From Agarophyton chilense (lineage: Eukaryota; Rhodophyta; Florideophyceae; Gracilariales; Gracilariaceae), in assembly GCA_030374765.1 (NCBI GenBank), contig JARGXX010000075.1, positions 1,550,001 through 1,614,000 of the forward strand: a stretch of 64,000 nucleotides of DNA, in the 5' to 3' direction. Below the pieces are notes generated by a model. It searched no databases. It was not told the DNA's origin and worked only from the letters and a program-made list of their open reading frames with translations. Shown here in pieces: positions 1,030 through 62,167 of the stretch. Numbering within the stretch: position 1 is the stretch's first letter; each line of letters opens with the position of its first letter. The translations under genes and the position numbers were made by a program.

Positions 1030-1701
1030 TTAAGCAAAATCGCACTTTGAGATCTTGAGTTTTAATCCATGTTCGGAAATGATTTGGATAACTTCCTCTA
1101 CGTGTCTCAGGTGCTTTTCCATAGACCTTGAGAAGATGACCATGTCGTCTATGTAGGCGGGTGCGAACAAGATTTTTCCAAGAATAGAATCCCTCATTCG
1201 CTGAAAGGTCGCTGGAGCATTCATGAGTCCAAAAAGCATGACTTCAAATTGGAAAGTTCCCTGGCGGCGGACGAAAGTGGTCATTTCCTTACATCTGGCA
1301 GCCATTTGGATCTGACAAAATCCGGAGAAGAGATCAAGAGTAGTGAAAAAGCTACAACCACCCAAATCGTCAAGTATCTCATGCATGTGCGGGAGTGGCC
1401 AACGGTCCGGCTTCACGATAATATTTAAGGCACGGTAGTCTACACAGAACCTGGGTTTTCCATCTTTCTTCGTGGCTACTACGACTGAGAATGACCAAGC
1501 CGAAGAATAAGAGCGGATGATAGTATCTTCTAGAATGCGGTCTACTTCTCTTTGAACTACTTCGTTGTACTTTGGTGGCAATCTTAAAACGCGGGACCTG
1601 ATTGGTCTGTCCACTTTCAAATCAAACTCATGCATAACTGGTACATCTGCTGGACGTAAATTGTGCAACGACCAGGCAATAACTGATAATAATGTCGGCA
1701 A
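1030..1701 (-). pseudogene. Element A reverse transcriptase
   Basis: A 223-aa open stretch covers the fingers and palm of a Ty3/gypsy reverse transcriptase. Visible motifs are the FCVDYRALN block, LDLFSGFCQI, FGLMNAPATFQRM and the catalytic AYIDDMVIFS (YIDD box) near position 1150. It lacks a proper initiation context because it belongs to a polyprotein, and a stop separates it from RNase H at about 1029. The catalytic residues look intact although the surrounding frame is broken. Confidence 0.88.
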
Positions 1702-2201
1702 ATCTCTGTCGTGATATTTCGGAGAGGTATTCTAGCCTTCTAAGTACTGTGTTCTGCCATTCCTGGGAGACGGAATCAACACTCAGCAGAGAATCGAAGT
1801 GGTGCGTTTTGGGTTCTGTAATCGTTGAAAGTGGACGGCATACCCCAACACGGCGGCTTTCTGGGTAGTGGAGGACGGCTAGACAGTCCTGATGCGATGT
1901 TGAGTTCCCGTGGTAATTCGCTGTATTTTGTGGTTTGTCCTGTTCTCGGTCTTATTGATTCTATAGTCTATTGTCATCATGTTCTTGATGCTGGAGATCT
2001 TCAGGTGAAGTCTCGACGATGATACCTGGTGGTGGATGGAATGTGTACTCATCGCGCGAGAGATCATCTTCGAAGTAGAGAACGAAATCTCCATCATCGT
2101 CTCCGTTGAGTGCTTCAGTGCGCCCAAACGGTAGTCAGAGGAATTAAACGAGAATGGTAGTCACACTGCCTTATTCTAAGTCGGATATCAAAATAACCGT
2201 T

Positions 2202-3790: not shown

Positions 3791-4735
3791 ATCATAGGCA
3801 GTGAGTACTGAGACCTGGCTTGGTTTTGGAGGTTCCGCTGCCGCTGGCTGATGATCACGGTGCCCCTAGCGATCTTCTTCACGAGACTCGCTCTTCACAT
3901 TTCCGAATGCCACTCTCATTTCTTGGTTAGGGCCTCGGTTCCAACAGTTTTTTATTGAGTGGCCGTTCTTCCTGCATCTTCCGCAGCGCGGTTCACGGTG
4001 GGGGTTCGGAGGGCATTGGTTTGAATTGTGGCCTGGCCTCTGAAAAAACGTACAGAGTGGCTCTTCTTCTCTTCAAGGCAGAGCAGCAGGTGCTTGTGAC
4101 TTTTTAATAAATAATGCTAGTTTGAAGAGCTGATCAGCGAGGTGATCAATATTTTCTCCCATCTGAGAAGCCCCGCTTACCTTGTTCTTGTATATCACAT
4201 TCTTGGGCGGGAAACCCATGTTGAACGGATTGTGATCTCCCTGAATCTTTTTTCGAGCAGAGAAGTCTTTCGCCAACAATAATAGTGATCTGTAGTCCAG
4301 AGCCGACGGAATATAGCAAACTGCGCCGGATCAGCGTATTGCGTGACGGCATTGCGAAACAAATCGAACTTGGCCTTCTCGTTGAATCCAGACCTCCCGA
4401 ATGAATCTTCCATGTCCTTCATGGATCGTAAGAGGTCACTATACTACAGACGAGCGCTGATTGCCCTTTGGATATGTTCCTCGGGCTCCTCTGCTGTCCC
4501 AAATCGTTCTACGAAAGCCTGACTCACAATAGCGTAATCTTTACCTTCTTTCGTAAGGTCACCTTCCGAAGCAAGTATATCAAAATAGAATTCGAAAGCT
4601 GCGCCTTCTAAAAATCCAAGAAATTCAAGCGCGCGGTTTTCATCATCGTTCCAACGAGTAGCAACATTCTCATAATAGAAAAGAAACTTTCGAAGATCGA
4701 CATTAGCGAACCAGGTTCAAGCAGTAGAGTGTGCT
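3791..4735 (-). pseudogene. Element A gag with zinc knuckle
   Basis: Reading the minus strand from about 4735 gives a capsid-like stretch with repeated aromatic and charged residues (FANVDLRKFLFYYENVATRW, then LEFLGFLEGAAFEFYFD). It is continued in other frames at 4422-4195, 4352-4146 and 4279-4073. Between about 4020 and 3930 a CGRC-x4-H-x4-C pattern (CGRCRKNGHSIKNC) is a CCHC nucleic-acid-binding knuckle. Several stops and frameshifts are present. The assignment rests on position upstream of the protease and on the knuckle. Confidence 0.7.
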
Positions 4736-4753
4736 GCTTCACAACTCAAACGA

Positions 4754-5758
4754 ATGCATGCGTCAAACAAGCAAAGCAGTGTAGACCCGCATAATTTGTA
4801 TGGTAAGAGGCAGAAAACCAGATCTGGATCGGTCCGCGATCGCCTAGGAGAGAGACCAGCGACATTCAGCGCAGGGAGAAGAACTGCTGGAGAGTGGAAC
4901 AAACCTTGCTTTAATAAAGAGAAGTGTAAAGGTATCCAAACCATTAGCAAGTGTCCGGATACCTCGAAAGAAAAGAGACGGGATCTTCTCAACGAATTTT
5001 TCGGTAAGAAAACAGATGGATCTAAAACCTTGAATATCGAAGCGGTCTGGTCCGTACTGGAAACGTTCTCGAACGCTGAAGAAGGCAGATATGATGTAAT
5101 GCTACACGATATCGAGGAAGTTGAACTTGAAGATTCGGGCGCCAGTAACTCTACGGATTTAACCACAGTCCTATCGGCGATTCAGGAGAAGCATCCGGAT
5201 GTCGTGATACAGTGCTTCAAAAATTTGATGATCCTCGAGCCGGCCTTGAAGGGCAATGGACAGGGAATAAAATAAACAGCCTCTGGAAGGGTCGAACTCT
5301 CACTTACGATCATCCTACCAAGGAATGAACTCTCTGTACACATACATAACGTGGAATTTTTCGTAGCAGACGAAGAGATGGAAGAAGTAGTGTTAAGAAA
5401 ACCATTGATCAAAGCAATGGGATTCGATCTGGACACGCATTTAAGACGGGCAGCAACAGTGTTCAACGGAAAGTCCGAAGCAAAGCTGAAAGAAGGAAAG
5501 GGTCGCCGTTCAACCACAAAGCTTAGAGGCTTGAGTTACCAGTTAGTTGAAGATGACCCTATACAGCCACCAGAATGCGTGAAGGCAGGCTTTGGCAGGG
5601 ACTTTGACGCAGAAATTGATGAAGCCTTGAGAAAGGCAATAGGTGACGCTGAATACTCCGGAATGTCTGGAAAGGGGGTTCTAACCTCAATGAGAAGGCC
5701 GCAGATGGGTAATGAGCTACAAAAACTTATGTGCGCAACAAAACGGATGCGCAATTAA
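4754..5758 (+). pseudogene. Element F gag/protease-side fragments
   Basis: Two open stretches (4754-5275 and 5351-5758) lie in adjoining frames. The first has a Cys-poor knuckle-like CFNKEKCKG...KCP followed by an acidic part. The second contains VEFFVADEEMEEVVLRKPLI and GFDLDTHL, which in this lineage is the protease domain and its flank. A stop at about 5273 and a frame change near 5345 separate them. No DTG/DSG triad is visible, so the protease is probably incomplete. Confidence 0.55.
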
Positions 5759-7975
5759 ATTCCAAACTACTCTAAAACAGTGCAATCACTACAAGACCTT
5801 CTCGAGGAAACGTACAAGAAGTCAGGAAAACAGACTAAGAAAGCAGTAGAGAAGATTCGTGTCTGCGAATCTTGGGGGAAGCCACACAATGAAGCCTTCG
5901 AAATGATCTTAACGCAAGTAGCCGCTGCCACGAGACTCTCTCTCCCAAAAGAGAACCACAGAACGTGTTTGTTCACAGACGCGTCGGACACACACTAGTC
6001 TGCAAATTTGACGCAGGTACCCCAACAAGACCAAAAGAAACCAGTAGAACTTCAAGGACATGAGCCCCTGTATTTCTTGTCAGGGGGTGTTCAAAGGATC
6101 CACAGAATGCTGGAGCCTCTCTGAAAAAGAAGGTTTCGCCATCGTTGAGGCTATTTGTAGAATGGACTACCCAACGACCGGAAGAATCACCCCCATATAC
6201 AAAAACCATTCAAACCTCGTCTACATTTAGGATCCATATGGACAAAACCCAGATATTGTACGTCACGCTGCGAACAAACTGATGCGGTGGGCCTTGAAGC
6301 TGAGAAGTTTCAGGTAAATCATAGAACACGTTCCCGGAATAAGGAACGTAAAAGAAAATTCTTTTTCACGCTGGACGCTACAACCGAAGCAAACGGTACA
6401 AAACGAAAATTGTGGACGCATAAGTTCCCTCATCACAGCACCGATCAATCTTGTAATCGAGGAGAAATTCGATGCGCCTTCTGTACCGGACGTATTCCAA
6501 TCCCAGCGCCGCTATGAATCTAACACACCAAAGAGAGTCTCTAAGGAGACACTGCCGTGGCGACTGACTATTGGGGAGATCTGGATTCCAGAACAGGATG
6601 CTGATATCCGACTACGCATTCTTATTGCGACTCACACCGGCCGTACAGGTCATAAAGTGTATGATCTGATATATGGTTCAGTAGCAAAACATTTCTGGTG
6701 AAAGACCATTCGAAAAGACACCTGAGAGGTCGTCACATCTTGCTTCCACTGCATCGCCGCTGAGTCTTGCGCTACAGGGCCAAAACCACTCGGCCACACC
6801 CTCCCTGCGCAGAAACCAAACGAGATCACCCTTTTCGACTACTGTTACATGTCACGAGTCGAGAATGGAGAACTGTATACACTAATCTCGAAGGACGACT
6901 TATCGAAATATGTATGGTTGAAGGCGACATCTCAAGCAGATGCAAACACAACTGCCAGAGTTTTTATGGATTGGTTCGCCTCGTTTGGGATAGCACAGTC
7001 ATGGATCTCCGATTAATGCAGTCACTTTTACAACAAGCTGATGAAATGCCTCGCACACAGGCCGAAATGTAGTCATCATTTCATACTTCCATTCTGCACA
7101 TGGATTAATGGACCCGTCGAGGTGGTAGGTCGGGAGCTGCTGCGGACTTGTAGATCTATCCTACCTGAGTTTCAGTAACCAAATCTGCATGGGCATCTGT
7201 CCTACCCCTAATTCATTTTGCCTTCCGCAACTCGCCACCGCGGCGGCTCGATGGCAAGTGTCCACTTACTGTTTTCTTTGGACTTCCACAGGACTAGCTG
7301 CTGACCGCTATTTCGCGACACACAAACGCCACGAAGGTTTTGTATATCTCTGAAGAAAGAGTTCGAGCGCTCTCAGTGCAGGAGAAGATCCTCAAAGCTT
7401 TGGACAAACTACATCGCTAGTGCGCAGATCGCGCTAAAAAGCAAAGAAAAGCATCAGTTGAGTCTCATAACCGGAGAACCGGCATTTGACCGATTAACTT
7501 TACGGACGGCGATTCTGTTCTTCGTGGCGTTCTACAACGATGCGTGAAGTCAAAGAACAGCCTCAGATGGCACGGACCTTTCGAAGTTACGGCATGCAGA
7601 GAGCATTACGTATTCCATGTGCAAGATTTTTTGTTAGACTTCAAAAAGGACTGGGTTCATGGGAGCCGTTTGAGGTTCTTTCGAAACAAAGACTTTGAAG
7701 TCACTGAGGTGATCAAGTACCATCTAGCTTACCAAACTAACGAACTGAGGGAAATCGAGGATTTAGGGATATTCGTCTTCATAAAGGACAGCTAAAGCTA
7801 CTTTTGAAATGGAGAAGATTTTCAGAGGAAAAACCGACTGGGTCGGATTTGATTCACTCCAACAAGACGTTCCCGATATCTTTCGCGAGTACATCGCCGA
7901 ATTGAAGCATTTTCGCAACCAAAGACCTCGCAGAACCGCGGAAGCCTTTGACCTACAATGACCGAAGAATTTTTT
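5759..7975 (+). pseudogene. Element F RNase H, integrase and chromodomain remnants
   Basis: Around 5965-5990 LFTDASDTH is the first catalytic Asp segment of RNase H. Around 6065-6290, in shifted frames, the element shows SEKEGFAIVEAICRMDYPTT and ANKLMRWALKL. Integrase zinc-binding residues (HTGRTGHK ... CFHC) fall at 6630-6755, and core sequence with ENGELYTLISKDD and DANTTARVF follows to 7015. A basic GPFEVTACREHYVFHVQ stretch lies at 7565-7625. At 7860-7960 LQQDVPDIFREYI resembles the end of a chromodomain. Many stops and shifts. Confidence 0.7.
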
Positions 7976-7990
7976 TGTCCATGGGGGACT

Positions 7991-9090
7991 GTTGATGGGA
8001 CGTGCGCTACATAGGCGCAGGCGAATGTGCCGTAACCAAAAAATGATCGAAATTGCCAAATCACGGTACTGTTTGGGATACAATACAGTACAATCGAACA
8101 TCCAGAAAAGAGGCAGAGTTAAAAAAAAGCCCACGCCAACGGCAAAAGTGCGACGGCGGTGGGCGGGTGTCCCCACAAAAGTTCTAAGGGATTCCGGTGC
8201 CTGTTATCCCCTGCGTGTTTTGCAATCCGTAGACAGTTCACGCCGTCTATGAGGCAGTATCCGTGATCAACACAAGCTATTAACGAGGAACGTATTTGAA
8301 CTCAGATTGGCTGGGCCATAATGATCATCAATTAGTGAAGTCGAACCGTGGCAACAATATCAATGTATATGAGTACCTCAAGATCTTTTTTTCAATTGTT
8401 TAGAGATAATTTCAGCTCTTACATTTAGATTGCGTTAACACAAATCTTTTCTGAAATTGTTCGTAAGAACAACTCCAGCTAAATTATGGCTGCATTTTCA
8501 AGCAGAATATGCAAACTGTGAGCATCAAAGCTGACTTTGGAGTCGAAGACCAGAGTGTGCCTTGTGCTCGTCTTTACACGGTTCTGGATTGCAGGGTAAT
8601 AATTTTCTAGTCATCATCAAGTTCTACGTCCTAGGTGTCCGATACGCATAGACTGACATTGTAAAAAGGCACGCAAGAACTGCTTTCAGAACATCTTCAA
8701 GAATTCGTGAGGACGTATTGAGTTGATCAGAGATGACGTCTGAATTCGGCATCGATATGAATGTTCGAATCTGAATGGTTGGGTTTGTATCAATGGTTGC
8801 TCGGCAACCGTTTGTTTTGTATCATGTATCTGTCAAAATGGTTTAGCCAGGTACTTACGCTTTGATGCACACAAGGTGATCGAGGGACTAGCGAAGTCAG
8901 CTCCTTCTGTTGATGTTTAGATTCTAATCAAACTGTTTCTGTGTTGTTTGTTCCCCAATATCTTTTAGTTATGTGCCCAGCTTCAAGTTTCAGTTCTTTT
9001 GATCTACCTAGTTGTTTTCGCTTCTCATGAGATTTTATACAAGCCCCATGAACCCACAGGAAAGATGATCAAAATCAGTATGCACGTTCT
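7991..9090. other. Non-coding, degenerate stretch after element F
   Basis: No convincing gene. The first part may be the 3' LTR of element F, as it follows a purine run and begins TGTTGATGGG, but no second copy is present in the window to confirm it. The 86-codon frame at 7992-8252 is arginine-rich and has no recognisable domain. From 8280 to 9090 the sequence is AT-rich with no ORF, tRNA or repeat that I could identify. Confidence 0.4.
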
Positions 9091-9411
9091 GTGAAGTTGT
9101 GCGAGGTATTTCATGATGAGCTTCCTACCAATAACAGAAACAAAATTGTTCTTAATTTTCGTGAGATTATGTTACTTTTCCAATCGTATGAAAGAGCCAA
9201 AAGCTTGTGCCAGAATATCACAAATGGTGTGTTGAAAAGCAATGCTGGTTTCAAGTCTTCAGTCGATGCCACTTACAAAAGAGATGCTTTGGCTTTTAAT
9301 AGTGAAGTCTATGCTGATTTCTTGGATCTTCTATCTACAGAACGATATTTGAACAAGTCGTTTCGTAATTTTAGACGACGATTTGAAGCGAAAGGTGGCG
9401 ATTTCAACTGA
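9091..9411 (+). CDS. Hypothetical 106-aa ORF
   Basis: An open frame of 106 codons with a mixed, protein-like composition (KLCEVFHDELPTNN near the start, a helical middle with LLFQSYERAKSLCQ, a basic end with NFRRRFEAKGG). The frame may start upstream, since the first ATG falls within an apparently continuous segment. No family is recognised. It lies between the relic of element F and broken LTR pieces of element B, so it may be a gag fragment of another retroelement rather than a host gene. Confidence 0.25.
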   Translation: MKLCEVFHDELPTNNRNKIVLNFREIMLLFQSYERAKSLCQNITNGVLKSNAGFKSSVDATYKRDALAFNSEVYADFLDLLSTERYLNKSFRNFRRRFEAKGGDFN

Positions 9412-9429
9412 ATTTTAGTAAGCTACACA

Positions 9430-9545
9430 AAGGAGGTGATGATGCTACATGTTGGACTTGAATGGTTGCCGGCATGCGCCATGTACTAAAGTGGGTTAGT
9501 TACCAATAAGTATAGCTTTTTACTAATTTAGTATTAGATACACCA
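9430..9545 (+). repeat. Element B LTR fragment (5' part)
   Basis: Matches the beginning of the element B LTR (compare 28610-28725): ggaggt-atgatg, then gttggac-t-gaatggttgcc, ending at tttagtattagata. It stops at 9545, where an inverted leader/PBS segment begins, so this is a truncated and rearranged copy. Confidence 0.7.
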
Positions 9546-9740
9546 GATTCTAAGTCGGGAGACCAAAATGTGGTATAAACTAAAACCGTAGCGGGGTTGT
9601 AAGACCTGTCGGTCTTATGGAGCGCGCAACGGGCTCGACCTAGGAGACGGAGATTGAAGATACCTGTAAAATGTGGCAGTACGAGCCACTGAATGATACA
9701 TGTAGCGAAGTGAGTTACCCCACGGATGTAATGATGCCAT
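9546..9740 (-). repeat. Inverted element B leader, PBS and LTR end, followed by an LTR start
   Basis: On the minus strand, 9701 to 9546 reads the last ~130 bp of the element B LTR (ending ACCACA), the 3-nt spacer, the primer binding site and 7 nt of leader, equivalent to 19343-19501 in the opposite orientation. At 9702 the plus strand switches to an LTR start (TGTAGCGAAGTGAG...), which runs to 9740 and is then cut by the Plavaka-type transposon. The same head-to-head junction (gctaca/tgtatc) recurs at 19342/19343, showing that the rearrangement was symmetrical. Confidence 0.7.
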
Positions 9741-9763
9741 CGTCTGTGTTCTCGGAATGCTAG
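9741..9763 (+). repeat. Left terminal inverted repeat of the Plavaka-type transposon
   Basis: Begins CGTCTGTGTTCTCGGAATG and pairs with 18386-18408 at 22 of 23 positions (T/A difference at position 5). The base pair AT at 9739-9740 is repeated directly outside the right end at 18409-18410. The flanking LTR sequence resumes at 18411 exactly where it left off at 9740, which fixes the boundary. Confidence 0.85.
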
Positions 9764-9873
9764 ATAAGTGTGCTAGATAGCTAGTTTTGTAAATAAAAAG
9801 CCAAAAAAACTAAGAATTTGGCAGATTGCGCTAGTTCGGTACCTGAAAAAAAAATATTGGAAATAATAACTGC
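9764..9873 (+). promoter_or_regulatory. Left subterminal region with repeated CTAG motifs
   Basis: Just inside the left end are repeated tgctaga / gctagttt motifs (9761-9790 and again near 9829). The right subterminal region 18205-18285 has the same motif several times in inverted form (aactagaaa, gctagttt, aactagcac). Subterminal repeats of this kind are transposase binding sites in CACTA-group elements; binding here is inference. The region must also hold the promoter of the methyltransferase gene, since only about 110 bp separate the terminal repeat from the first ATG in frame. Confidence 0.5.
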
Positions 9874-10773
9874 ATGCATCTTAGTGTTCTGACCACTTGA
9901 TGCAGTTTAATCTGCATTTGCAGTTTACTGGTCACTTTTGACCGCTCTAGGTGAAGATCCATACCAAGGCAGTTGGTTCTCACGGACCCGCCGTATAATA
10001 TACGTGCGAAGAAGAACAGGAAAAACAGCTGGTACGACGTTCTTAACCGGCAAGACATGGTGAAGACGGCGAAGCTCATCTCTAAACTTATGCGTCCGGA
10101 AGTGCATTTCGTTATATTCTGCGCGATTGAGCAGGTGAACGAATGGAAAGAAGTGTTGGGTCGAATTGGTGCAAAGGATGAGAATGGACAGAAGAGCAGG
10201 TCGTTTGTCGTGGACAAGGTCCAGCTGCACTTCATTCGCTCTCAAGGCAATCCGATGCGTAATCCCGGACGTAGTTCGTGATCCCTGTTTCCCGGAACAG
10301 AGTACACCATTCATGGAGTTCGCAGCGGGTTGTCCTACGCCGAACAACATGGCATGGTGAACTATGAGAACTTCAGCTATGTACCATCGCGATATCCGGG
10401 TTACCATAGCGGGATTGACCAAGTGCCTCCCATGTCGAATGGTGAAACACTTCTATGGAGAAGGAAGAATGCCAAAGGAGCAGTTACGTATCAGAAAGTG
10501 AGGGCGGAACAGAAGTCACGCGCTTTGCTGAAGGAGCTCATCAGCAGGTTTTCTCAGCCGGGAGACATAGTGGTGGACCTCTTCGCCGGAACATTTTCAA
10601 CGGCCATGGCATGCATGGAACTGGAAAAGCACCGTCAGTTTCTAGGGTGTGAGCCAGATCCGCAGTGCTTTGATCATTCGAAGCACGCCGCTACAGTGAA
10701 ATCTGCGTCATGCATGCGGAACAACGAGACGGACATTTATATAACGCAAGATGTTCGGAACGCTGTGACTTGA
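9874..10773 (+). pseudogene. Transposon-borne DNA amino-methyltransferase (N6-adenine/N4-cytosine type)
   Basis: The catalytic motif LVLTDPPYNIR (positions 9973-10005) is motif IV of DNA adenine-N6 or cytosine-N4 methyltransferases. The AdoMet-binding motif I, DIVVDLFAGTFSTAMACMEL with GCEPD, lies C-terminal to it (10564-10656). The order IV-then-I is that of the beta class. The protein would modify exocyclic amino groups of DNA bases. The frame is open from an ATG at 9874 apart from TGA codons at 9898, 9952, 10279 and 10771. All other codons stay in frame, and no other stop type occurs. The stops could be nonsense mutations (CGA to TGA by CpG deamination would fit); a short intron around 9950 or 10280 is a less likely alternative. 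The start is uncertain: the region before 9952 is not clearly homologous. The ORF runs directly into the SET domain in the same frame. Confidence 0.8.
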
Positions 10774-11565
10774 GTGACATGCTTGTTTCCGGACGTCGTC
10801 ATAAAGCGTTTGAAGTCCTGGAAAACACCTACCGGATTTCCCGAGCATCAGATGTTTCCACCCCATATCGTGGATTTTCTCTCCTCCATGTGGCAGGATA
10901 AGAATATATCGGAGATTGGGCGACAGCAGGCGCTGTATGAGTGGCCAAGAAGTTTTCAAGGAAAGATGTCACTGTTGGATTGGAATGCTATTCTGGCAGT
11001 GGAGGCGACGGTATGTGGTTGTCGGATTGCAAATGCTGGAGTTGGTGTGTACACAACACGCCGGGTGATACAAGGTGAGAATGTTTGTTACTTTTACGGG
11101 ACTTTGGTGTACCATGATCTTTCAAAGCGGAAGGAAGTTCATAAGGCATACGGAGGGGGGCTATTGAAAGCGACTGCTGATCGTTTTCGGCAGTACGCGA
11201 TGGAGATAAGCGTCCGAGGGGAAGTGTTTCACAAGCTACCAGGAAGAATTAGTGGGGTGTCTCTTATTCCGGTGTGGATTGTCCCTGCTCCATTTTGCTT
11301 GGGGGGAACAATTAACGACCCCAAGTATGTGGAAGGGAATAGGGACAGGGATGCGGTTGAAGACGGGTTAATGAGACGCCGAACTGCAAATGTTCGGGTC
11401 ATCAGAACTCTGGGGACGGGGCGGACCCCATTTCAGTTGAGAGACTATAGATTGCTTCCTGTGCAAGCAATTCGAGATATAGAAATAGGAGAGGAGCTGT
11501 TCGCGGATTATGGGACAGAGTATATCTGGAGTATGAATAACACGCCAGTCATAGTAATCGATTAA
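10774..11565 (+). CDS. SET-domain protein methyltransferase module
   Basis: About 264 codons ending in TAA. The SET core is visible as GVGVYTTRRVIQGENVCYFYG (start of the domain), INDPKY followed about 20 residues later by ANVRV in place of the usual NHS-x-x-N block, and the C-terminal IEIGEELFADYGTEYIW with the catalytic Tyr region. SET domains transfer methyl groups to lysines, usually on histones. The first codon after the TGA at 10771 is GTG, and the first ATG is some 25 codons further on (MFPPH), so this part probably has no start of its own. It shares the reading frame with the upstream methyltransferase, and the simplest reading is one fused polypeptide broken by a TGA. The HS of the NHS motif is absent, as in several algal and transposon SET domains. 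Confidence 0.8.
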   Translation: MTCLFPDVVIKRLKSWKTPTGFPEHQMFPPHIVDFLSSMWQDKNISEIGRQQALYEWPRSFQGKMSLLDWNAILAVEATVCGCRIANAGVGVYTTRRVIQGENVCYFYGTLVYHDLSKRKEVHKAYGGGLLKATADRFRQYAMEISVRGEVFHKLPGRISGVSLIPVWIVPAPFCLGGTINDPKYVEGNRDRDAVEDGLMRRRTANVRVIRTLGTGRTPFQLRDYRLLPVQAIRDIEIGEELFADYGTEYIWSMNNTPVIVID

Positions 11566-11889
11566 AAGTGCATCGCTTTTCTTACTTTACTTTATTGTAG
11601 TGTACCAGATATTGTGGGCTTTTACTATGTTTGTCGCTACATATAACGTCAAAGCGTGACGTAGTACATGTGCTAAAGGAAAGTCATGTACACCGAAGGA
11701 GAATACTTTTCCAATATCTGGTGCGTTCGAGCGCATATTTAAAATATCTGAAAAGTTTGGGGGTTTTCTGAGAACACGAAAAGGGTGGAGGTATATTTTT
11801 GGAAGCAGAATGTTTCGAAGCTTCTCTCCCATCCATCGCATTGCAACGCGTGGAAGACCATACCACGATCGCTCTCTCTCTCTTCAACC
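11566..11889 (+). promoter_or_regulatory. Spacer between SET gene and ORF2
   Basis: About 320 bp with no conserved ORF. It should contain the 3' end of the methyltransferase-SET transcript and the promoter of the following gene. The ATG used for the next gene (11890) follows a pyrimidine-rich stretch with cgctctctctctcttcaacc, which could be an initiator-type region. No clear TATA box at a standard distance. Confidence 0.4.
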
Positions 11890-14544
11890 ATGGCTCCGAA
11901 GCGCAAATCGAGAAGCGAGAACACTAGCGGGCGCGGTACAAAATCACGGCGGCATGGAGGGGATGCGGAGGGCAGAAGGGACAAGGGGCGTAGGCTCCAG
12001 GGCGCGAGTGGAGAGAAGGGAGGTGTGCGCCTGAGAGGTAGATCAAGGCAAGATGGTGGGGAAGGAGAGGCGAGTGGGGGCAAAGGAAAGGCTGTTCGCG
12101 CAAAGGAGACGGTGACGGAGGAGAGTGCAGAGCAAATCACGTCGCGTACGGAGTAAATCAGGTCGCCTACGGGAGAGATGGTGCGGAGCGGCGATGGAAA
12201 CCGGGATGGCGTGCGAAGCAACCGCACGCGTGTACCTGGAAGTGGAATGCGGGGGAGGGCGAGCAGAGCTCCAGGGAGGACAAGGAGAGGGGATGCATCC
12301 GAGCGGACTCTAAGTGCTTTACTCACGTCTTCAGCTGATGTGGAGCCGGTAAATCCATGCTCTGTACCTGAAGGAGGTAAAGAGATTCCAAATGAGAGGA
12401 CGAAGGGGCGTAAGGAGGGAGAGAGAATGATCGGAGAACGTGGATCCCGCCTCAGAGACGTTGAAGAAGCAGGGGCATCGTTTACGGGTATGAGGGAAGA
12501 GGACGGTGATGATGAGATACAGCAAGGGAGAATAGAGAGTAGCCGTGGTGGGGAGGGTAGAATAGGTGGACCCAGTACTGGTCTAATCGCGGGCGCAAGA
12601 GTCGTTCGAGAGAGAACAGAAGGAGAGAGAGTTGGAGTTACCGCGGGGGAACGGGCGGAAAGATGGGAGGGGGCGAACTTGGATTACGTGGAAGAAAGGA
12701 GAGAGCGTGCAAGGGAAAGAATGGGGAGTGTTCGAGTTACAGGAAGAAGAGCGATAGACGAAAGGGAAAGCAGAGAAGTGTATGTGAGTGAGGGGGGGAG
12801 AAGGGGGTTTGCTGGAGGGAGAACACGTGGTTCAGGGGAGGAAGGCGATGGAAGAGCAGCAGTTCTTTCTCATCAGGGAGAAGATGTCAAGCGTTTGCCA
12901 CCGAGGAGAGGGGTGGGTTTGGGAGTTGAAGGATTTGAGGTGAACGCAAGGCGAAGGACGCCGGAAGGTATGCGAGTAAGGAGAAACATTGTATTCACAA
13001 GGAATAATCATAGCGGGGAGAATGCGAATTTAAATGTTGTGGAGAACGCCGTCCGTATAGTGGAAGATGAAGCAAATGATGATGACATAGGTTTGTTGCC
13101 GCGATCGATGCTAATTGCGAAGATGAATGTGTTGAAGGGACAAATGGGACGTATGAAGGAAGACAGCTACAGTGTGATGGTGAGTTTGAAAATGACCCAA
13201 ACGGAGCTGGATCGGGCGGGGGAGGAAATGAAGCAGCAGAATGTGCTGATTGAGAGTTCGAGGGAGGCGTTGAAAGGTAGAATCGCTGGGGAATGGAGAG
13301 GGGAGGGAGGCGTGACGCGGAGACGAAAGTATGACATTGGAGTGCAGGAATGCTTTTATGGATTTGCACGTCGTGTGTATGATAGGATTCTTCATTATGC
13401 AAAACTGGAGGCATCGGAACTTTGCTTCGACACCGAGAATATGGGTCGAAGCTGGAAGAATAGAAGTGAAGGGCTTGGGGAGAGTAGGGAGGAAAGTATT
13501 TTTGTGGTGGGAGAGAAGGAAATGGTTCCGAGATGTCCAATTGAGGTTGCATATGATATGAGACCGTATACGCCGTCGACAGAGGGCGGGAGCCATTTGT
13601 TGTTGAAGCACGTGGTAGAGACTGAGTTAATGGGAGAGAAATGGGAGTCGATAAGGGAAGCGGGGAGGAGAGAGGAGTGCGTGGAAAATGTAAGTGCGGA
13701 TAGGTGCTTGAGACAGAGGATGAAGCAGACATTGAGCGATGTGGTTGGGGTGCGGAAGCGAGCAGTGCGTGATAAGCTGTTTTCCATGCTTGGATATGAT
13801 TTGATCGCAAAACGAGCTAAGGTGACTGAAGGGACGGAGCTTTGGGCGGAGTTGAAGAAGCAGATTGAGGAGGGGCAGGAGAAGTTGATGGGATCGGGGG
13901 AGGATGGGGGAGGTAAGCTGTGTGCGTGGAGAACGAGTGCGATTGAAGATATTACTTATTCTGGATCGGAGGTGTCTGAGAACTTAGAGGACTTTGGTGA
14001 GGCAGATATGTATTTTCGAAATCAGGTGTCGTTGAAAGTGTTGGAGGAGTTTATGGGCTACGCGGTAGAGAGTCACAGAAATGGAGAAAGGCAGTATTCG
14101 GATGGGACGGTGATGCATCTTGCGCGACTTGATGCATGGATTGGATGTGTGGTGACCACGATGGATAGAGACGTTGGGTGGGGAGGCCAAAGGCAACTTT
14201 TGTTCTCGACGCTGTTTGGGAGGTTTCTGTCACTGGCTGTTGAGGACATATTGAGGGTTGCCTGGAACATGGTGAAGGATGAGTATGCTGAGGAGTTTGA
14301 GAATGAAGGATTGTGTGAAGGGAATCGTAGAGATGTGAGTGGGAATAAGGAGAGAATCGCGACGGTTGGGCTATGGATATCGTCGAGAGAGAAAATCTAT
14401 CTGGCGATAAGGGAGGAGTTTTTCATGGAGAATCTCACGAGAAGACTTGGAACGGTGTTAGATTGCTATATAGAGTCATGTGGACCAGAAGAACCACGGT
14501 TCAAGCGCTTAGCGTTTGGGAGTAGGCAAGGAGTGGGAGAGTGA
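11890..14544 (+). pseudogene. Transposon ORF2, unknown basic/coiled-coil protein
   Basis: From the ATG at 11890 (MAPKRKSRSEN, a basic nuclear-localisation-like start) the frame is open to TGA 14542, about 880 codons, except for one TAA at 12154. The TAA sits in the second unit of a 21-bp tandem duplication (12131-12151 and 12152-12172), where the first unit has CAA, so it is a C-to-T nonsense change. The first 350 residues are Arg/Gly/Glu-rich and disordered. A coiled-coil-like stretch follows (LIAKMNVLKGQMGRMKEDSY onward, about 13110-13290). The C-terminal ~400 residues are globular with several aromatic motifs (ECFYGFARRVYDRILHYAKL; DAWIGCVVTTMDRD). I do not recognise the family. By position it may be an accessory transposition protein, like the second protein of CACTA elements, but that is inference. 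Confidence 0.7.
12131..12172 (+). repeat. 21-bp tandem duplication inside ORF2
   Basis: Two 21-bp units, AGCAAATCACGTCGCGTACG + G and AGTAAATCAGGTCGCCTACG + G, differ at three bases. The duplication is in frame; the C-to-T difference in the second copy creates the premature TAA of ORF2. Confidence 0.8.
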
Positions 14545-14727
14545 TAAGGTACGGGGGGATAAGGGGGTAACGAGGTGGAGCAAGATGGGGGTCGGCTATG
14601 GAAGAAAAGCAGCGGTGACTATTTTATTGGATCATGTGCCTTGGGAGGTATTATTATGGGTGCCACCCAGTGGTGGTGTTGTGCCACCAGTGGTGGTGTT
14701 TGAGAAGTAGGGCTTGGCAGTTGGGTC
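14545..14727. other. Convergent 3' region between ORF2 and transposase
   Basis: Short region between two converging genes. At about 14661-14702 an imperfect tandem/inverted repeat built from gccacc and ggtggtg occurs, able to form hairpins; it might serve as a bidirectional terminator or polyadenylation region. Nothing else is seen. Confidence 0.35.
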
Positions 14728-17700
14728 TCAGTAGAATCTGTTGAGGTAAAATCGATGGAAGCACCAGTGCAATCGAGGGGTGAAGGGGGGTGCGGGGTAG
14801 TTTTGGCGAAGTACATGAACGGGGCCGAGAATGGAAGAGGATGGTACGAGGCCGAACCAGGAGGAGACGTTGTCGGAGTTGGAAGTGTTTGAGATAAGAA
14901 GGGGGTGGGCGGTGTGGTTTTGTTCGTCGTCTGTTGCCCATCGGAGGCAGATGAAATTGAGAGAGACATCGACTTGATCCCTGGGGTGGAACGAGTTCGA
15001 GGAACTGAACGAAGGCGAACTCGTTATGAGTGGAAGGGGAAGAAGAGGTGGTGAAGCGAAGAAGAGAGTTGAGCTTGCAGACCCAGGCGGTGGGAGTGGG
15101 GTTGGAGAAGCTGGAACCGGCAACGAGGATGTGGGAGAACTTTGGGGTTTTAGAGGGACCGAAGGAGGGAGCAGCGAAGATACGTTGAATGAGTGGGAGA
15201 GGGGGATCTTTGACGGCGAGCTCGTTTCGATCGGCGATGTAGTCGTCTAGGGATGGGGTGAAGCCGCCGACGACGTATGCGGAATTGACGAATGCGAGAC
15301 GGGTTTGGCGGAGAGTGGGGGAGTGTTGGTTGAGAGCTAGTGTTTCGAGTGTGAGTGTGACGAAGGAGGGGAGTGCGAGGGTTCCAATCTGTGAGATGAT
15401 GGCGATAGTTTATGGGGAGAAGAGGTCCTGAAGGGAAGAGATTGTGGAGTGGGGGTTTGCTCGAAGGAATTTGTGAGCGGTGATGAGATCGGAAAGGGAG
15501 GTGTGCTTGCCATCACGGACGAAACCTGGTTTGCGGGCTTGGAAGGGAGGAGGAGGGACATGGGAGGATGAGGTGACGGAAGGATCAGCGGAGAGAGAAA
15601 TCCAATTGTTGACGGCATCGGAGGGTTCGATGGCACGGATGGTTTCGTTGTGCGCTGTGGGTCTGCGCTTGGAGGTTCGGGAGTACTGTGCTTTGAAGAG
15701 GGTATGGGCTTGTTCGAAGATGCCTGCATCGTTGAAGTGGAGACCCCCAAAGCGTCGAATGTCGTCTACGATGTGATCGAGGAGGTGGAATTTGAGGGTG
15801 CCAAGGTGGGAGGTATGGTATGGACCGAGAACATCGACAGCTCTGTGCTTGAAGGAATGGATTTGGGAGGCGAGTTTGGCAAGACGACAAGTGGTCCATT
15901 CGGGGACGGAGTTGTAGCACATGGAGGTGAGGAGGAGGTCTGTGTACTTGGAGAAGACGGTTGTGATGGGAGCGGAATTGGCTTCGTCACAGCAGCGGTC
16001 GAAGAAGGCGCCGATGAAGGGGAAGACCATGTCGAGGGCGCGGTAGTCTTTTGCTTCTAGCATGCAGCGGACGCCGTCAGTTGTGAAGAAGCCGTTGAGG
16101 GACTGCCTGCTTTCGGAAGTAGAGAAGTCGATGTGGAGGCCTGTAGCTGGGGAATGATTTTCGATGGCGGTGAGGATGAAGTTGGAGTGCTTGAGGATGG
16201 AGGTGCGGACGGAGTGGAAGGAACGGCAGGAGTTTGTAAAGCTGATGGTGGTGAAGAGGTGTTCTGATCTGAGACGTTCGATGGCGGCGAGCTTGATGAG
16301 TTTGGAAACGCCGAGGTGGAAGTTGTGGAGGGGTTCGAAGGGGAAGATGTTGTATGGGGTGAGGAGGGGGGTGATGTTGAAAAGGGGGTAAGACTCGAAG
16401 AGGGAGGGGTATTTTGCGAGGGAGAGGGAGTGGAGTGCTTGGAGAGCTTGTTCCTTGAAGTTGCGCGAGACTCTTGGCTTGCGGGCGAGGAGAGCTGCTT
16501 CGGAGTCCTTGAGGAGGGAGAAGTGTTTGTTGCGGGCTGCAAGGGTGAGGGGAAGAGATCGAGGGGGATGGGCGTGAGAGTGTTGGTGGAGTTGTGAGCG
16601 AGGGACAGAGCATCTGTGGCAGGGGTGCTGGGGGCGGGTGCCGTGGGAGATGGCGAGAATATCCTTTGCCTCTGGAATGTCTGCGCAGTAGCTGGCGATG
16701 ATGGGGTGGCATTGACGAAGAACGCCGTCTGCGTCGCGGAAGGGGAAACCGGGGAGGGCGGAAGAGAAGAGAGGTTGAAGGAGGGAGGAAATGGTCTGCT
16801 GTATGAGTTCCATTTTTGTTTGGCGGGGGATGGAGGAGGAATGAGTGATGATATCTGCATCTGGAGAAGGAGTGATTGGGGTGAAGGAGGTGGAAAGATA
16901 GCCGAGGAGTGTAAGATTGTCGGAGATGCATTTGCGGCGAAAAGAGTCGGAGAAGTTGAGAAGGGTGATGTGGAGGGGGTAGGAGGTGATGGAAGAAGAT
17001 TTGAGAGAGGTAGAGGACTTGTCGGAGTAGATTTGGACGAGGCCAATGAAGGAGTCGATACCGGTGGAGTGAGGATGCCAGACGCTGTTATCTTTTGTGG
17101 ACTGCATGATGGCGGTCTTGAGTGCGGGGACGACTTTTGAGCCGAGGGTGGCTGCCATGGGGTGTGCAAAGGTGGGGGAGCCGGAGGCGGATGTTTGGGA
17201 GATGGGGTGGAAAAAGGTGTTCTTGAAGTGTGCGAGGGCGAGCTGTTGTTTGAGGACATGGATTGCGTCTTTCTGGAAGAGGGTTGCGGAGAAGCGTTTG
17301 TGGGGATCGAAGATGGTGGAGGGGGCGAAACCAATGGACCTGATTATCTGGTGGAAGGGGTCTGCCTGGAGCTCGAGGCATTGCTTTGCGGAGGAGACTG
17401 AGTTCTGGAATGTTGATTCGGAGAAGTGGGGATCATTAAGGAGAGTGATGAGTTCGTCAGCCTTTCGTTGTCTAAGCTTGGAGGCGATGGAGGAGATGTA
17501 GAGGAGCATTTTCTCCAGGTGGGGGTTGTCGAGGGGGGGAGTGGAAGGAGGGAGGGGGGAGAGAGCGAGAGAGGAGGGGGAACCGAGAGGGGCAGTGGCG
17601 ACGTGGATGGCGTCCTGGGTGTGGAGGGAGAGAGAGAGCTGGTCTTGGAGGTAGGAGTCATGGTGTGTGAGAGGGACGTTGTCGGAAGGGCTATGTGAGG

Positions 17701-17892
17701 GAGGAGGATGAGGGGGGAGTTGTGAGGTGGACTTGTGGCGTTTTGTGCGGGGGGGGAAGTTGGTTCATTTCCGCCAGGGGAGAGGAAGCGCTTGTTGGCG
17801 GAGAAGCGATGAGGGCACCTTCTCTGGTGCCGCTGGAGGGCGGGGATTTCTCGGGCGAAGAAGGAGCAACCGTTGAAGCAGCAGGAAGGCAT
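14728..17892 (-). pseudogene. Plavaka-type transposase with N-terminal C2H2 finger
   Basis: The minus strand from the ATG at 17892 begins MPSCCFNGCSFFAREIPALQ with H-x4-C to follow: a C2H2/C2HC finger as at the start of Plavaka transposases. A one-base shift in the C-tract at about 17750-17757 leads into the long open frame 17509-15410 (699 aa). That frame contains IQIYSDKSS (an acidic catalytic-core region), a Cys/His cluster (HPCHRCSVPRSQLHQH), FEPLHNFHLGVSKL (the D/E-x-LH motif region) and a helical C-terminal half. A single TAA at 15410 interrupts it, but the same frame stays open to about 14990, where a shift in a CCCC run leads to the conserved end WFGLVPSSSILGPVHVL and a stop at 14728. 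Total about 1,050 codons, with one stop and two one-base shifts. The role is cut-and-paste transposition in the nucleus. Confidence 0.85.
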
Positions 17893-18385
17893 GGTGGGTG
17901 GAGGAGAGGTGGTGGGAAAGAAGTTGGTAGGGGGCGTAGACGGAGAGAGAGTATGGCGCACACAGGGCACGTGACAGGGGAGGGCGGTGGAGAATAATAT
18001 AGAATGCAAGGCACGTGAGATCTGCCAGGTCGGGCTGCGATTCTATTGCGATTGATATGGATGGTACTAAATGTTCAGTTTCTATTTGAGGTCCATTTTG
18101 GGACCGGTTGTTTGTACTAATCGTTCAATCTAGAGCGCACAAAGATTGAATCTGCTCCTGCACCACTTCTCTACTTTTACCTTTAAACTGCGGCGACAAA
18201 AAAAAATTCACGCTAGTTTTACCTCCATCAAAACTAGAAAAACTGCAGATATGTGCTAGTTTTCCTTCCCATACAAACTAGCACTAATGAACGAATGAAA
18301 ATATTTTCGGAAAGTAACCCCTCCAAATTTGGATAAATTCACGGGTTTTTCGGTCATTTCAATTCGTCCTTTTTTGACCACTGAA
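17893..18385 (-). promoter_or_regulatory. Transposase promoter and right subterminal region
   Basis: Between the transposase start and the right terminal repeat are about 490 bp. A TATA-like aataatatagaat occurs at 17992-18004 (plus-strand orientation). The outer part 18200-18300 has repeated aactag / ctagttt motifs in both orientations, matching motifs next to the left end. These are probable transposase binding sites (inference). Confidence 0.45.
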
Positions 18386-18408
18386 CTAGCATTCCGAGAA
18401 CACTGACG
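18386..18408 (-). repeat. Right terminal inverted repeat of the Plavaka-type transposon
   Basis: Reverse complement begins CGTCAGTGTTCTCGGAATG and pairs with 9741-9763 with one mismatch. It is followed by the AT target duplication and then by the interrupted element B LTR (tgtgttagacctgg). Confidence 0.85.
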
Positions 18409-18918
18409 ATGTGTTAGACCTGGATGGTTGCCAGTATGCACCGGGTAGTACATTAGGTTAGTTAGCAATAAGTATAGATTTTTACTAATTTAGTGTTAGA
18501 TGGATAGGATTAAGTAGATATGAAGGCGTACGTTAAGTGCCCCTCAGCGTGGCCACGTGGCGAGGAGGGCCACCGTAGGTCGGGTGGCCGGTGAGATATA
18601 TATCTTCACTAAGCATTGCCACCCCGATCATTATTGTAAAGTTAAGCACCTACTAGACTACTGTTGACGCTTTTCGTATCTATAGTCGATCATAAAGGCA
18701 AGTCTAGTGTCCTTACGGTTTTCCGGACGCGTGTGGGCTGTTCATCACCGTCAACCAACGTGTTCTCAGTACGTCCGCTATTTTTTTGCATCTTTCAGTG
18801 GCCAGTGCTGCCACACCTTACGGGTATCTTCAATCTCTACGTCCTAGGTCGAGCCCGTTGCGCACTCCCTAGATCCAACAGGTCTTATAACCTCGCTACC
18901 GTTCTGATTTATACCACA
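18409..18918 (+). repeat. Element B LTR, remainder of the copy split by the transposon
   Basis: Continues the LTR begun at 9702-9740 and runs to the terminal ACCACA at 18918. It aligns along its length with the 3' LTR of element B at 28630-29141 (shared blocks: gccacgtggcgaggag, ttcact/caccaagcat-gccacccc, ccgttctg-tttata). Together 9702-9740 plus 18409-18918 make a ~547-bp LTR, close to the 549 bp of the 3' copy. Confidence 0.8.
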
Positions 18919-19342
18919 TTGCAACAAGGAATGTCGGGCGTACTGAGACCACATTGGTAGAAGGGGATACACAGCCCACGAGGGTCCAGAAAAGCGTAAC
19001 GACACTATACTTGCCTTTATGATCGACTATAGAAACGAAAAGCGTCAATAGTAGTCTAGTAGGTGCTTAACTTTACAATAATGACCGGGGTGGCAATGCT
19101 TAGTGAAGATATATATCTCACCGGCCACCCGACCTACGGTGGCCCTCCTCGCCACGTGGCCACGCTGAGAGGCACTTAAGGTACGCCTTCATATCTACTT
19201 AATCCTATCCATCTAAAACTAAATTAGTAAAAATCTATACTTATTGCTAACTAACCTACTGTACTACCCGGTGCATACTGGCAACCATCCAGGTCTAACA
19301 CATGGCCTCATTACCTCCGTGGGGTAGCTCACTATGCTACAT
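18919..19342 (-). repeat. Inverted copy of element B LTR (5' ~420 bp)
   Basis: On the minus strand, 19342 reads TGTAGCATAGTGAGCTACCC and continues through the LTR body to about position 420, ending near 18919. It directly abuts the plus-oriented LTR that ends at 18918 and makes an imperfect palindrome with it (18411-18720 pairs with 19000-19313 almost throughout). Confidence 0.8.
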
Positions 19343-19473
19343 GTATCATTCAGTGGCTGGTACTGCCACACTGTACAGGTATCTTCAATCCCCGTCTCCT
19401 AGGTCGAGCCCGTTGCGCGCTCCCTCTGACCGACAGGTCTTACACCCCCGCCACGGTTTTGGTTTATACCACA
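19343..19473 (+). repeat. 3' end of the element B 5' LTR
   Basis: Last 131 bp of the LTR (tgtatcattcagtggctgg ... ttataccaca), immediately followed by a 3-nt spacer and the primer binding site. The LTR part upstream of it has been replaced by the inverted copy at 18919-19342. Confidence 0.75.
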
Positions 19474-19476
19474 TTT

Positions 19477-19494
19477 TGGTCTCCCGACTTAGAA
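19477..19494 (+). other. tRNA primer binding site of element B
   Basis: TGGTCTCCCGACTTAGAA, starting three bases after the LTR end. The TGG start complements the CCA of a tRNA 3' end. The same 18 bases occur in element D (53024-53041, minus strand) and in the rearranged piece at 9551-9568 (minus strand). The tRNA was not identified in the window. Confidence 0.75.
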
Positions 19495-19804
19495 TCTGGT
19501 GTTCACTACGTTTGGAATCGAAAGTGAGGATTTGGAGTTGAATCCGTACCGATGTGTGAAGAAGTGACTGAAATAGCAACTGCTGAATCATTAGTTTACC
19601 TTAATGGAGAAATCATCGAAAAACGCGCCGAGATGCGTCAATAGGGTGCCTTGTGCACCCGTTGGTGGCCTCTCCCCACGGGGAGGACTTGCGCAATTAA
19701 TTCTGGACAACCCGGAGGAAGTTTTTCGGAAGCCAAGAACCACCCAGGTCGATGCGGCAAGACGAGAGATAGAATGACCCTCGATAGAAGCCGGAACCAC
19801 CAAT

Positions 19805-28590: not shown

Positions 28591-28592
28591 TA

Positions 28593-29141
28593 TGTAGAAT
28601 GTTGAGCTACACCACGGAGGTAATGATGTCCCGTGTTGGACCTAGATTGTTGCCAGTATGCGCCATGTACTACAGTGGGGTCGTTAGCAACTAATATATC
28701 CTTTTGAGAATTTAGTATTAGATAGATAGGATTAATTAGATAGAAAGGCGCAATTCAAGTGCACCTCCCAGTGCCCACGTGGCGAGGAGCGCCACCGTAC
28801 GTCGGGTACTGGCTGAGGTATATGTCTTCACCAAGCATGGCCACCCCATTCACTATTGTACAGTTAAGAACCTACTTGACTACTTTTACCGCTTTCGGTT
28901 TCTACAGTCCACCATAAAGGAAATTATAGTGTCGTTACGTTTTTCCGGACCAGCGTACGCTGTGCATCACCGTCTACCAACGTAGTCTAAGTACGCTCTC
29001 CATTCCTTTTGTACCCTTCAGTGGCTGGTGCGGCCACCCCTAACCGGTATCTCCAATCCCCGCCTCCTACGTTGAGCCCGTTACGAGCTCCTTAGAACCG
29101 ACAGGTCTTACACCCTCGCTCCCGTTCTGGTTTATAACTCA
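28593..29141 (+). repeat. 3' LTR of element B
   Basis: Starts TGTAGAATGTTGAGCTACAC just after a purine-rich run (tttgaggcgagta) and ends tttataactca. About 549 bp. It matches the interrupted LTR at 9702-9740/18409-18918 along its length with many substitutions, so the element is old. Confidence 0.75.
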
Positions 29142-29194
29142 TCAACTGCCATTCTGCAAATGATTCAATTCTACCCACTTCTAAAGTTTCATTT

Positions 29195-60900: not shown

Positions 60901-61766
60901 TGTAGGACAATGCTTGGAGCGGAGACACCAAGAAGATGTGCGGGATCTTCCTCTCTTGAGAGACACGCCTCAGGCAGAGGAGACGCGTCCCAGCAAAGCA
61001 CAGGAACAGAGCCACTTTGGAAAGGCACGACGGAGTCGGGTGCAAGACCAAGGCCAATCCGGCGGGATATACCTAGATTGTTTAGGTGAGCACGGCACAG
61101 TCCGGGGTGTGATCAATCCTAGGCGGAGCGGTACCACGGCGATTATCGGAAAAGGAGCGAGGAAACACTCATATGAGGTGGACGAGCGGGGTGAGTGAGG
61201 CGGCCACTCACGAGAGCCAAAAAGGAGAAAAAGAGGAAAACGGGGGCGAAACCCTATACAGGGGCGAGACTACGACAAGTGTCGGCGATTAAATATAAAC
61301 CCACGGTGGTGGTAGCACTCTGGTCGACAGAGGGGTGGATGAACTAACGTGCAACGGGCGCTCACGCAGTATGCGGTGAAGACGCGCCGAAGGCGAAAAG
61401 TTCAGAGCCAAGACTCCCTCCTTGGTCTCCCAAGAGGGTGTTTACTGGGAAGCAGTGCTCAACCTCCTAAGTAGTGTGGCGCGCGGCCCCTGACAGTAGG
61501 CGCGCGCCCGAAAAATAGACACTAAATAGCGATATCGTAGCTAAATAACACTAACCATTAGGTACAATCCGGGCCACGTGTGGCACGCCTCGCACTCGAG
61601 CGTCGGCATCTGTGCAGTCCACGTGTTCCACCAGTGTGCACTTCCGGCCCTAACCGGCCGTCAGCACGCAAATAGCGGTATAGCTTGTCATAGCCCAAGC
61701 TATTTCTCAAGCGAGCGAAACGTCTAAGTCCTGCGAAGAAACCCCCTTGAAGGACATTGTCCTTCA
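60901..61766 (-). repeat. LTR of D-family element E (3' LTR)
   Basis: 866 bp. On the plus strand it starts TGTAGGACAATGCTTGGAGC and ends GGACATTGTCCTTCA, followed by the minus-strand purine tract at 61767-61780. Its termini are an inverted repeat (TGTAGGACAATG / CATTGTCCTTCA). Sequence blocks shared with the D LTR include gccaaaa/aggaga, ggcgaga, tagagccaaga and taaata, but overall similarity is low. Confidence 0.8.
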
Positions 61767-61780
61767 TATCCCCCTCCTTA
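61767..61780 (-). other. Polypurine tract of element E
   Basis: Minus strand ctaaggagggggata immediately before the LTR start TGAAGGACAATG. Same sequence type and place as in D. Confidence 0.7.
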
Positions 61781-61801
61781 GGTGACGAACACGCCGTCGA
61801 C

Positions 61802-62167
61802 ATGGCGGGGAGGCAACGGTCCAACCTGCATAAGAGCGAGCCGCGTAACGCGTCCAGCGACCACTCGACTGTCGAAGGCAGAGCTGCACAACAGAACGAC
61901 AAACGCACCAACGCGGTAACCACTCTTCGAACTTCGAGCGCTCTTCCGCATCGTACGCCAACTTCCAGCGACCACATCCCGATACCTCGGCGACCAGTAC
62001 TCCCTATGAACGGTGGTAACAATCCCCGCCGGGGTTACTTGCCGAGCCGATCCCGGGGTCCCGTTGAAGCTTCAAGGCACATCACTCCTGCGGAGGACAC
62101 CTGGCCCAGTTACGACGAACTTGTCGGGTTAAACCCGCGTCAACATGTATTATTTAGTAATTTTTAG
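61802..62167 (+). pseudogene. Antisense accessory gene of element E, N-terminal fragment
   Basis: Starts MAGRQRSNLHKSEPRN at the ATG at 61802, 35 nt from the LTR edge. It goes on to NGGNNPRRGYLPSRSR and TWPSYDELVGLNPRQH, which align with D (NQNNQPNRLPAGYFSAFRS; WPPYDMLVGRHPGHH). At about 62150 it runs into the inverted LTR and stops. The alignment with D and C fixes the start codon of the gene. Confidence 0.7.

Follow-up and report, generated by a model that had tools for sequence, protein, structure and literature searches.

Transposons that carry one epigenetic enzyme are already known. In fungi, TET/JBP transposons of the Plavaka lineage make a 2-bp target duplication and carry a dioxygenase of possible epigenetic use, and the accessible part of the same source names HarbingerS and MuDR transposons of Phytophthora that contain a gene for a SET lysine methyltransferase (PMC12730594). 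Both groups resemble the element described here, a DNA transposon of the Plavaka type at 9741–18408 of a 64-kb stretch of the red alga Agarophyton chilense (contig JARGXX010000075.1, positions 1,550,001–1,614,000; hereafter the window, with a GC content of 48.6%), but there are several differences. Unlike the fungal elements, as far as the accessible text describes them, this one has no Pfam TET/JBP match, a PhyH-type dioxygenase with a predicted ParB-like fusion partner, a DNA methyltransferase fused to SET, a palindrome array, CGTC..GACG termini and a red algal host, while the Phytophthora elements have transposases of other superfamilies and are mentioned there with no fusion to a DNA methyltransferase (PMC12730594).

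Two other systems are also close. N4CMT of bdelloid rotifers, as presented in the accessible portion of PMC8885841, is a host gene with a chromodomain fusion that marks transposons, with SETDB1 as a separate protein, whereas the methyltransferase described here is borne by the transposon and fused to SET. For the "Plavaka giant repeats" of Amoebidium, the portion of PMC11244446 available mentions no methyltransferase-SET gene, ParB-like gene or palindrome array. The algal element has its DNA methyltransferase and SET domain united in one protein, a putative ParB-like dioxygenase with an array of its own, and a block of genes shared with another mobile repeat; no description of the methyltransferase-SET fusion, ParB-like dioxygenase and palindrome array together on a transposon was found in a targeted search of mostly non-subscription literature.

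The window copy ends in inverted repeats, CGTCTGTGTTCTCGGAATGCTAG at 9741–9763 and its inverse at 18386–18408, which match at 22 of 23 positions, and is flanked by an AT duplication at 9739–9740 and 18409–18410, as the first-pass annotation of the window had reported. (Unqualified positions are window coordinates; C-numbers denote contigs and L-numbers loci of the same genome, of which 79.8 Mb in 135 contigs were searched.) The unoccupied site is visible in the inverted second arm of the surrounding host repeat, the arms of which correspond at 92.5% (9540–9740 with 19302–19502) and 94% (18409–18777 with 18935–19303). The transposase (14635–18042, minus strand) matches the Plavaka domain PF18759 with E 2.3e-22, and that of a long copy on C10 does so with E 1.4e-22, exceeding the cut-off of 26.3 bits. 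The N-terminal zinc finger and C-terminal motif ascribed to it earlier are likewise present in the intact frame of the C10 copy, as a zinc-finger-like motif at codon 54 and LVPSSSILGPVHVL at codon 1066; the open frame has 1137 codons in other copies. A hallmark of Plavaka, according to the available text of PMC12730594, is a C(2)C and an H(3-4)H motif between the second D and the last E; this pattern is found here as CHRC at 476 and HLLDH at 754, between ADIPE at 455 and FNDAGIFE at 771, the choice of the second D and last E being our own. The 2-bp duplications agree with the 2–3 bp expected of Plavaka. Fungal PlavakaA and PlavakaB termini are given in the same partial source as TGT..ACA or CATCA..TGATG (PMC12730594), and the CGTC..GACG termini of this family fit neither; the family is therefore of the Plavaka lineage by its transposase, yet outside both described fungal subgroups. 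As a side observation, five PF18759 matches (C3:25449, C3:100257, C16:982980, C96:306216 and C1:1831104) share an open, stop-free frame of 725 codons, as if a truncated version of the transposase had itself spread.

Searches with the ends and the proteins revealed at least 40 copies, with the cargo inside the same ends in the long ones. As lower bounds that include the window copy, there are at least 40 left-end matches (40 of 126 candidates scored), at least 43 transposase-end matches (40 of 259) and at least 40 matches to the methyltransferase part (40 of 190). Among 20 copies compared at both ends, the window copy included, 19 have a perfect 2-bp target duplication (TA, TT, AT, CA, TG, CG and AC occur) and one has a CA/CG mismatch; the left end is CGTCTGTG in 19 and GGTCTGTG in one, and the right end is ACTGACG in all 20. 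The longest ordinary copies measure, end to end, 18.8 kb (C10 and C117), 18.5 kb (C2), 18.9 kb (C12), 18.6 kb (C73) and 18.1 kb (C99), and 13 shorter copies span 5.4 to 17.6 kb; a 23.6-kb copy on C97 is probably enlarged by a nested insertion. The long copies C2:40670-59136 and C12:654623-673556 have identical flanks on both sides, reflecting either a single insertion present twice through duplication of the host segment or a duplication made by the assembly, and were counted as one event. At C77:799878-819182, match positions indicate what is apparently a pair of copies in inverted, head-to-head orientation.

The long copy at C10:918487-937296, the sequence of which was examined in full, displays the gene order of the long form. 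In element coordinates, it comprises a reductase-like gene (1219–1974, plus strand), a candidate membrane protein with no assignment, open reading frame 2 (ORF2; 3899–7639, minus strand), the palindrome array, the methyltransferase-SET gene (8835–11963, plus strand), ORF4 (from 12291, plus strand) and the transposase (15035–18445, minus strand). The reductase-like gene shows weak similarity to 2-dehydropantoate reductase (E 0.016 and 0.036, far under the family cut-offs), and in other copies, 24 of the 57 rows compared have a frame of 300 codons, which is stop-free in 19 of those 24. ORF4 has no Pfam match; in the C10 copy its open stretches are of 350 and 583 codons and lie in different frames.

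The methyltransferase and SET domain of the long copies form a single fused gene of 1043 codons. They had been described, together with a large protein of no recognizable family, as three separate cargo proteins within the same ends; the presence there of a DPPY methyltransferase, a SET domain and a large ORF with no Pfam match is borne out, but not their separateness, as methyltransferase and SET in the window are one gene split by two TGA codons. The methyltransferase is of the beta class (PF01555, with DPPY ahead of the S-adenosylmethionine (AdoMet) motif and a CcrM/RsrI fold); in the window, the N6_N4_Mtase profile (PF01555) matches the C-terminal half with 48.4 bits and the N-terminal half with 17.3 bits, the latter under the cut-off of 26.7. 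DPPY suggests adenine specificity, and beside this hint rotifer N4CMT is also among the matches of the methyltransferase. The SET domain matches PF00856 with 23.9 bits in the window and 23.4 bits in the C10 copy (cut-off 22.4), PF00856 is also listed for 40 of 88 homologs of the fusion, and N763 is invariant in 13 sequences and at least 90% kept among 57. The fusion recurs in Chondrus and in metagenomes and is conserved over distant sequences; relatives are found in Chondrus, Gracilaria and Pyropia. No methyltransferase-SET relative was detected among IMG/VR contigs or prokaryote species genomes with two short patterns, which distant relatives could escape, and with that proviso a viral origin was rejected.

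The view that methyltransferase and SET are part of the transposon is supported. For 56 of the 123 PF18759 matches in the genome, a PF01555 match lies 2–12 kb off on the expected side and strand; none of the 123 has one on the wrong side, and after a 50-kb shift only 1 of 123 does; one of the 56 pairs (C95:2973592 with C95:2984630, a methyltransferase of the second family described below) may be a coincidence.

ORF2, with 1247 codons, matched no Pfam family, TET/JBP included, and the same holds for its metagenomic homolog P0089; searches of PDB sequences with ORF2 and its alignment gave nothing better than E 0.69. One relative was obtained by direct search and 16 more from that one, and one relative is in Gracilaria domingensis. 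A structure model of P0089 suggests a ParB/Noc-like N-terminal part and a 2-oxoglutarate (2OG) dioxygenase as the C-terminal part. Foldseek matches of this model are Noc 7ol9 (E 2.9e-4), ParB 7bnk (E 3.7e-3) and 6sdk (E 4.9e-3), with TM-scores of 0.38–0.40 by target, and they support the predicted ParB/Noc N-terminal and helix-turn-helix fold weakly. The dioxygenase part has a conserved HxD...H iron site and a double-stranded beta-helix fold of the PhyH-type 2OG-Fe(II) class; fold searches for it list PhyH-type enzymes, and TET/JBP proteins are not listed for the homolog, which says nothing on their absence. Most aligned homologs that hold the ParB-like part also have a DG(R/H)HR-type motif. 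This motif, and the proximity of a bacterial-type beta-class methyltransferase to a ParB-fold protein, might suggest restriction-modification-like addiction, in which the ParB-superfamily domain would be a nuclease, the methyltransferase would protect, and loss of the element would harm the cell. However, the C-terminal part of the ORF2 protein has a dioxygenase fold, and SET is the fusion partner of the methyltransferase; we regard addiction as very improbable. Another metagenomic relative of ORF2, P0099, is listed with a C48 peptidase domain (PF02902), apparently in a C-terminal extension.

Bacterial ParB and Noc proteins work with parS and NBS palindromes. In the long form, the gap between the divergent ORF2 and methyltransferase-SET genes, a divergent promoter, holds inverted repeats ending in TGTCGGCCGACA, a 12-bp palindrome found 487 times in the genome, compared with 5 times for a reversed control. 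There are nine exact sites in the C10 copy and seven in the C2 copy; the window has no site even when one mismatch is allowed. Among the clusters listed, 8 of 10 fall, as we read their positions, inside matches to the family or at most a few kb away; the exceptions are two clusters on C3, at 184.7 and 196.7 kb. These palindrome clusters are real, and would be candidate binding sites of the ParB/Noc-like protein.

Related cargo is also present in a second repeat family. The PF01555 profile search of the genome gave 116 matches, of which 26 full-length rows, as we read them, represent this other family, many of them near contig ends. In its C10 copy a single frame encodes both methyltransferase and SET, and the gene after it is for a zinc-finger/DEAD-helicase protein; the fusion is 35% identical to that of the first family and 59% identical to metagenomic P0002. 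A tyrosine recombinase, proposed for this second element from a motif reading, was rejected, as Pfam shows only helicase domains. On a single contig, C76, related cargo occurs in the same order and orientation as in the Plavaka element: a reductase-like gene (44%), then the relative of ORF2 (tblastx pieces of 49–60%), which is its dioxygenase part in the sequence covered, namely that outside 12501–14299 and up to 18300. C76 also has 773-bp repeats in an array, every one of them containing ATTGCCTGCAGGCAAT, and a PF01555 match at 21711 in a frame of 1141 codons. ATTGCCTGCAGGCAAT is the 16-bp palindrome of the second family, found 177 times in the genome compared with 0 for the control, and among its places listed, those on C4, C16, C21, C22 and C25 adjoin methyltransferase matches. 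Examples of the family near contig ends are C10:1410, C10:13447, C25:4990, C16:1849946 and C88:3113932; the two C10 copies are 12 kb apart, and in these examples the strand is plus near left and minus near right contig ends. This location is either subtelomeric or due to arrays that stopped the assembly.

Bacterial ParB/Noc systems are comparable in that a predicted ParB/Noc fold would here have perfect palindromes of 12 or 16 bp clustered next to it, but this predicted fold is fused to a dioxygenase and is inside a eukaryotic transposon. One alternative reading is a maintenance module, with the ParB/Noc-like protein and its array acting as a parS-like partition or tethering system for an extrachromosomal or clustered phase and the enzymes being accessory. 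The retention of palindrome clusters in shortened copies (seven sites in the 5.4-kb copy on C1, which has no methyltransferase match, and eight and six sites near the left end of L035 and L042), as well as the tandem second element with its 773-bp repeat arrays, would fit such a role. However, the other loci examined have no array in the stretch compared, derivatives such as the window copy are without one, and ParB is not known to us to be employed in the nuclei of eukaryotes; maintenance is an unlikely explanation.

The cargo could instead be a self-marking module that sets the marks on the element's own DNA and chromatin, nucleated at the palindromes, and judging from the sequences we would give this reading an even chance. 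The ParB/Noc-like part would bind the palindromes in the divergent promoter and, once bound, may extend from there over the element and take the dioxygenase along. The fused enzyme would methylate DNA, probably at N6 of adenine, and would also put a lysine methyl mark on the histones of the same DNA. Both marks together would set the chromatin state of the element and, through it, how the element is expressed and transposes, the host itself being apparently devoid of cytosine-C5 methylation. A more elaborate version is tentative and rather doubtful: a clamp of the ParB-parS type would load and spread the DNA- and histone-modifying enzymes on the element, and the cassette would have been swapped between unrelated red-algal mobility systems, giving private DNA methylation in a host that lacks cytosine methylation.

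Several observations weigh against self-marking. The N-H motif of SET reads N-D, with H replaced by D, and the C-terminal tyrosine Y828, invariant in 13 sequences, is not at least 90% kept in 57. Noc is the only Foldseek match with E below 0.001 for the ORF2 homolog, with a low TM-score and a model of pLDDT 69.6. The C10 copy is not fully intact, as ORF4 changes frame and the reductase-like frame has 252 codons compared with 300 elsewhere; ORF4 is broken in the window copy and the C10 copy alike. Ratios of amino-acid-changing to silent changes (N/S, counted as distinct changes) among copies show only a mild bias against amino-acid change, with 0.80 for methyltransferase-SET (11 loci), 0.74 for the transposase (25), 0.63 for ORF2 (6) and 0.51 for the reductase-like gene (4), and selection on present copies is therefore weak or recent. 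Finally, 67 of the 123 transposase matches have no methyltransferase within the 2–12 kb range, and shortened forms have therefore spread without it, presumably in trans. Six of these 67 (L083–L088) were inspected and are of the same family, at 95–97% identity, and four of them (L083–L086) have a shared internal deletion; separate insertion of the cargo, which had been named as the finding that would overturn its link to the element, was not seen at these loci.

The near-neutral ratios and the 67 matches with no methyltransferase nearby, as well as a reductase-like gene with no evident chromatin role, would be compatible with hitch-hiking, that is, with picked-up genes useless to mobility, the enzymes of which act elsewhere or not at all. 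However, it would be surprising for passive cargo to recur as a related, identically ordered block in a second mobile repeat, where the fusion protein is 35% identical, or for the fusion to be conserved across distant sequences, and hitch-hiking is distinctly unlikely.

The element's methylation and chromatin marking had been proposed at first as an escape from silencing or a control of transposition. Control by the element of its own expression or chromatin may be plausible, but escape fares poorly as regards host cytosine methylation. No match to PF00145 (C5-DNA-methyltransferase) was found in the genome, where introns could hide a gene although exon matches would be expected; the control of this search was positive in 10 of 14 genomes. 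MT-A70 (PF05063) likewise had no match, but as its control was negative in every genome, this says nothing on absence. Among 12 copies, CpG transitions number 27 changes at 511 sites (5.3%), compared with 86 at 2038 other C/G sites (4.2%), which is no marked excess. Because there is neither a C5-DNA-methyltransferase match nor marked CpG decay, escape from host 5-methylcytosine silencing is unlikely and was rejected. Anti-silencing directed at an RNA- or histone-based host system, with SET writing an activating mark and the dioxygenase removing a host mark, has precedents in the TET/JBP genes of fungal transposons and the SET genes of oomycete ones, as named in the accessible part of PMC12730594. 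The missing host C5 methyltransferase match argues against it, as do the PhyH-type matches of the dioxygenase in the searches made, with no Pfam TET/JBP match, and it appears quite improbable.

If the self-marking reading holds, mobile elements and not the host should be the source of DNA methylation in some red algae. It also offers an explanation for the many N6_N4_Mtase genes of a red seaweed: in the available text of PMC12115072, an expansion to 66 such genes in Asparagopsis taxiformis is reported under gene duplication. PF01555 genes are numerous in that alga, as they are here, and the present result suggests that the Asparagopsis genes may be transposon cargo.

The window copy itself is a dead, decayed internal-deletion derivative of an autonomous-type element about 18.8 kb long, and the functions attributed to it at first cannot be its own, as it is truncated and has stops and frame breaks. 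Its left end (9741–9973, plus strand) is fused to the middle of the methyltransferase-SET gene, with base 228 of the left end joined to about base 10345 of the long form at a 5-bp microhomology (GCAGT, 9969–9973); about 10.1 kb is absent relative to the long C10 copy, and the roughly 10 kb deleted held the reductase-like gene and ORF2. Such deletions, judging from the microhomology, probably arose from gap repair following excision. The amino-methyltransferase part follows at 9973–10773 (plus strand), with DPPY near its start, DLFAGTFSTA later and TGA stops at 10279–10281 and 10771–10773, and then the C-terminal part at 10774–11565 (plus strand), with the Pfam SET match at about 11038–11514. 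ORF4, encoding an Arg/Glu-rich protein with no assigned function, spans 11890–14544 (plus strand) with a TAA interruption at 12154–12156, and the transposase frame is broken: it shifts near 17755 and near 14983 and is interrupted by a stop codon at 15410–15412. Two other origins were considered and rejected: a separate repeat nested in the transposon, prompted by a methyltransferase match starting sharply at position 229, because long copies hold the cargo inside the same ends, and 5' truncation of a retrotransposon, because the deletion is internal, with microhomology and the true left end retained.

The host repeat is of a foldback family with inverted arms at 9416–9740, 18409–19502 and 28592–29142 of the window, and the transposon landed in one arm. 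The C10 copy also sits in a repeat found in the window, because 61559–61662 matches its right flank at 91%. Inverted repeats of about 660 bp are present at 60901–62819.

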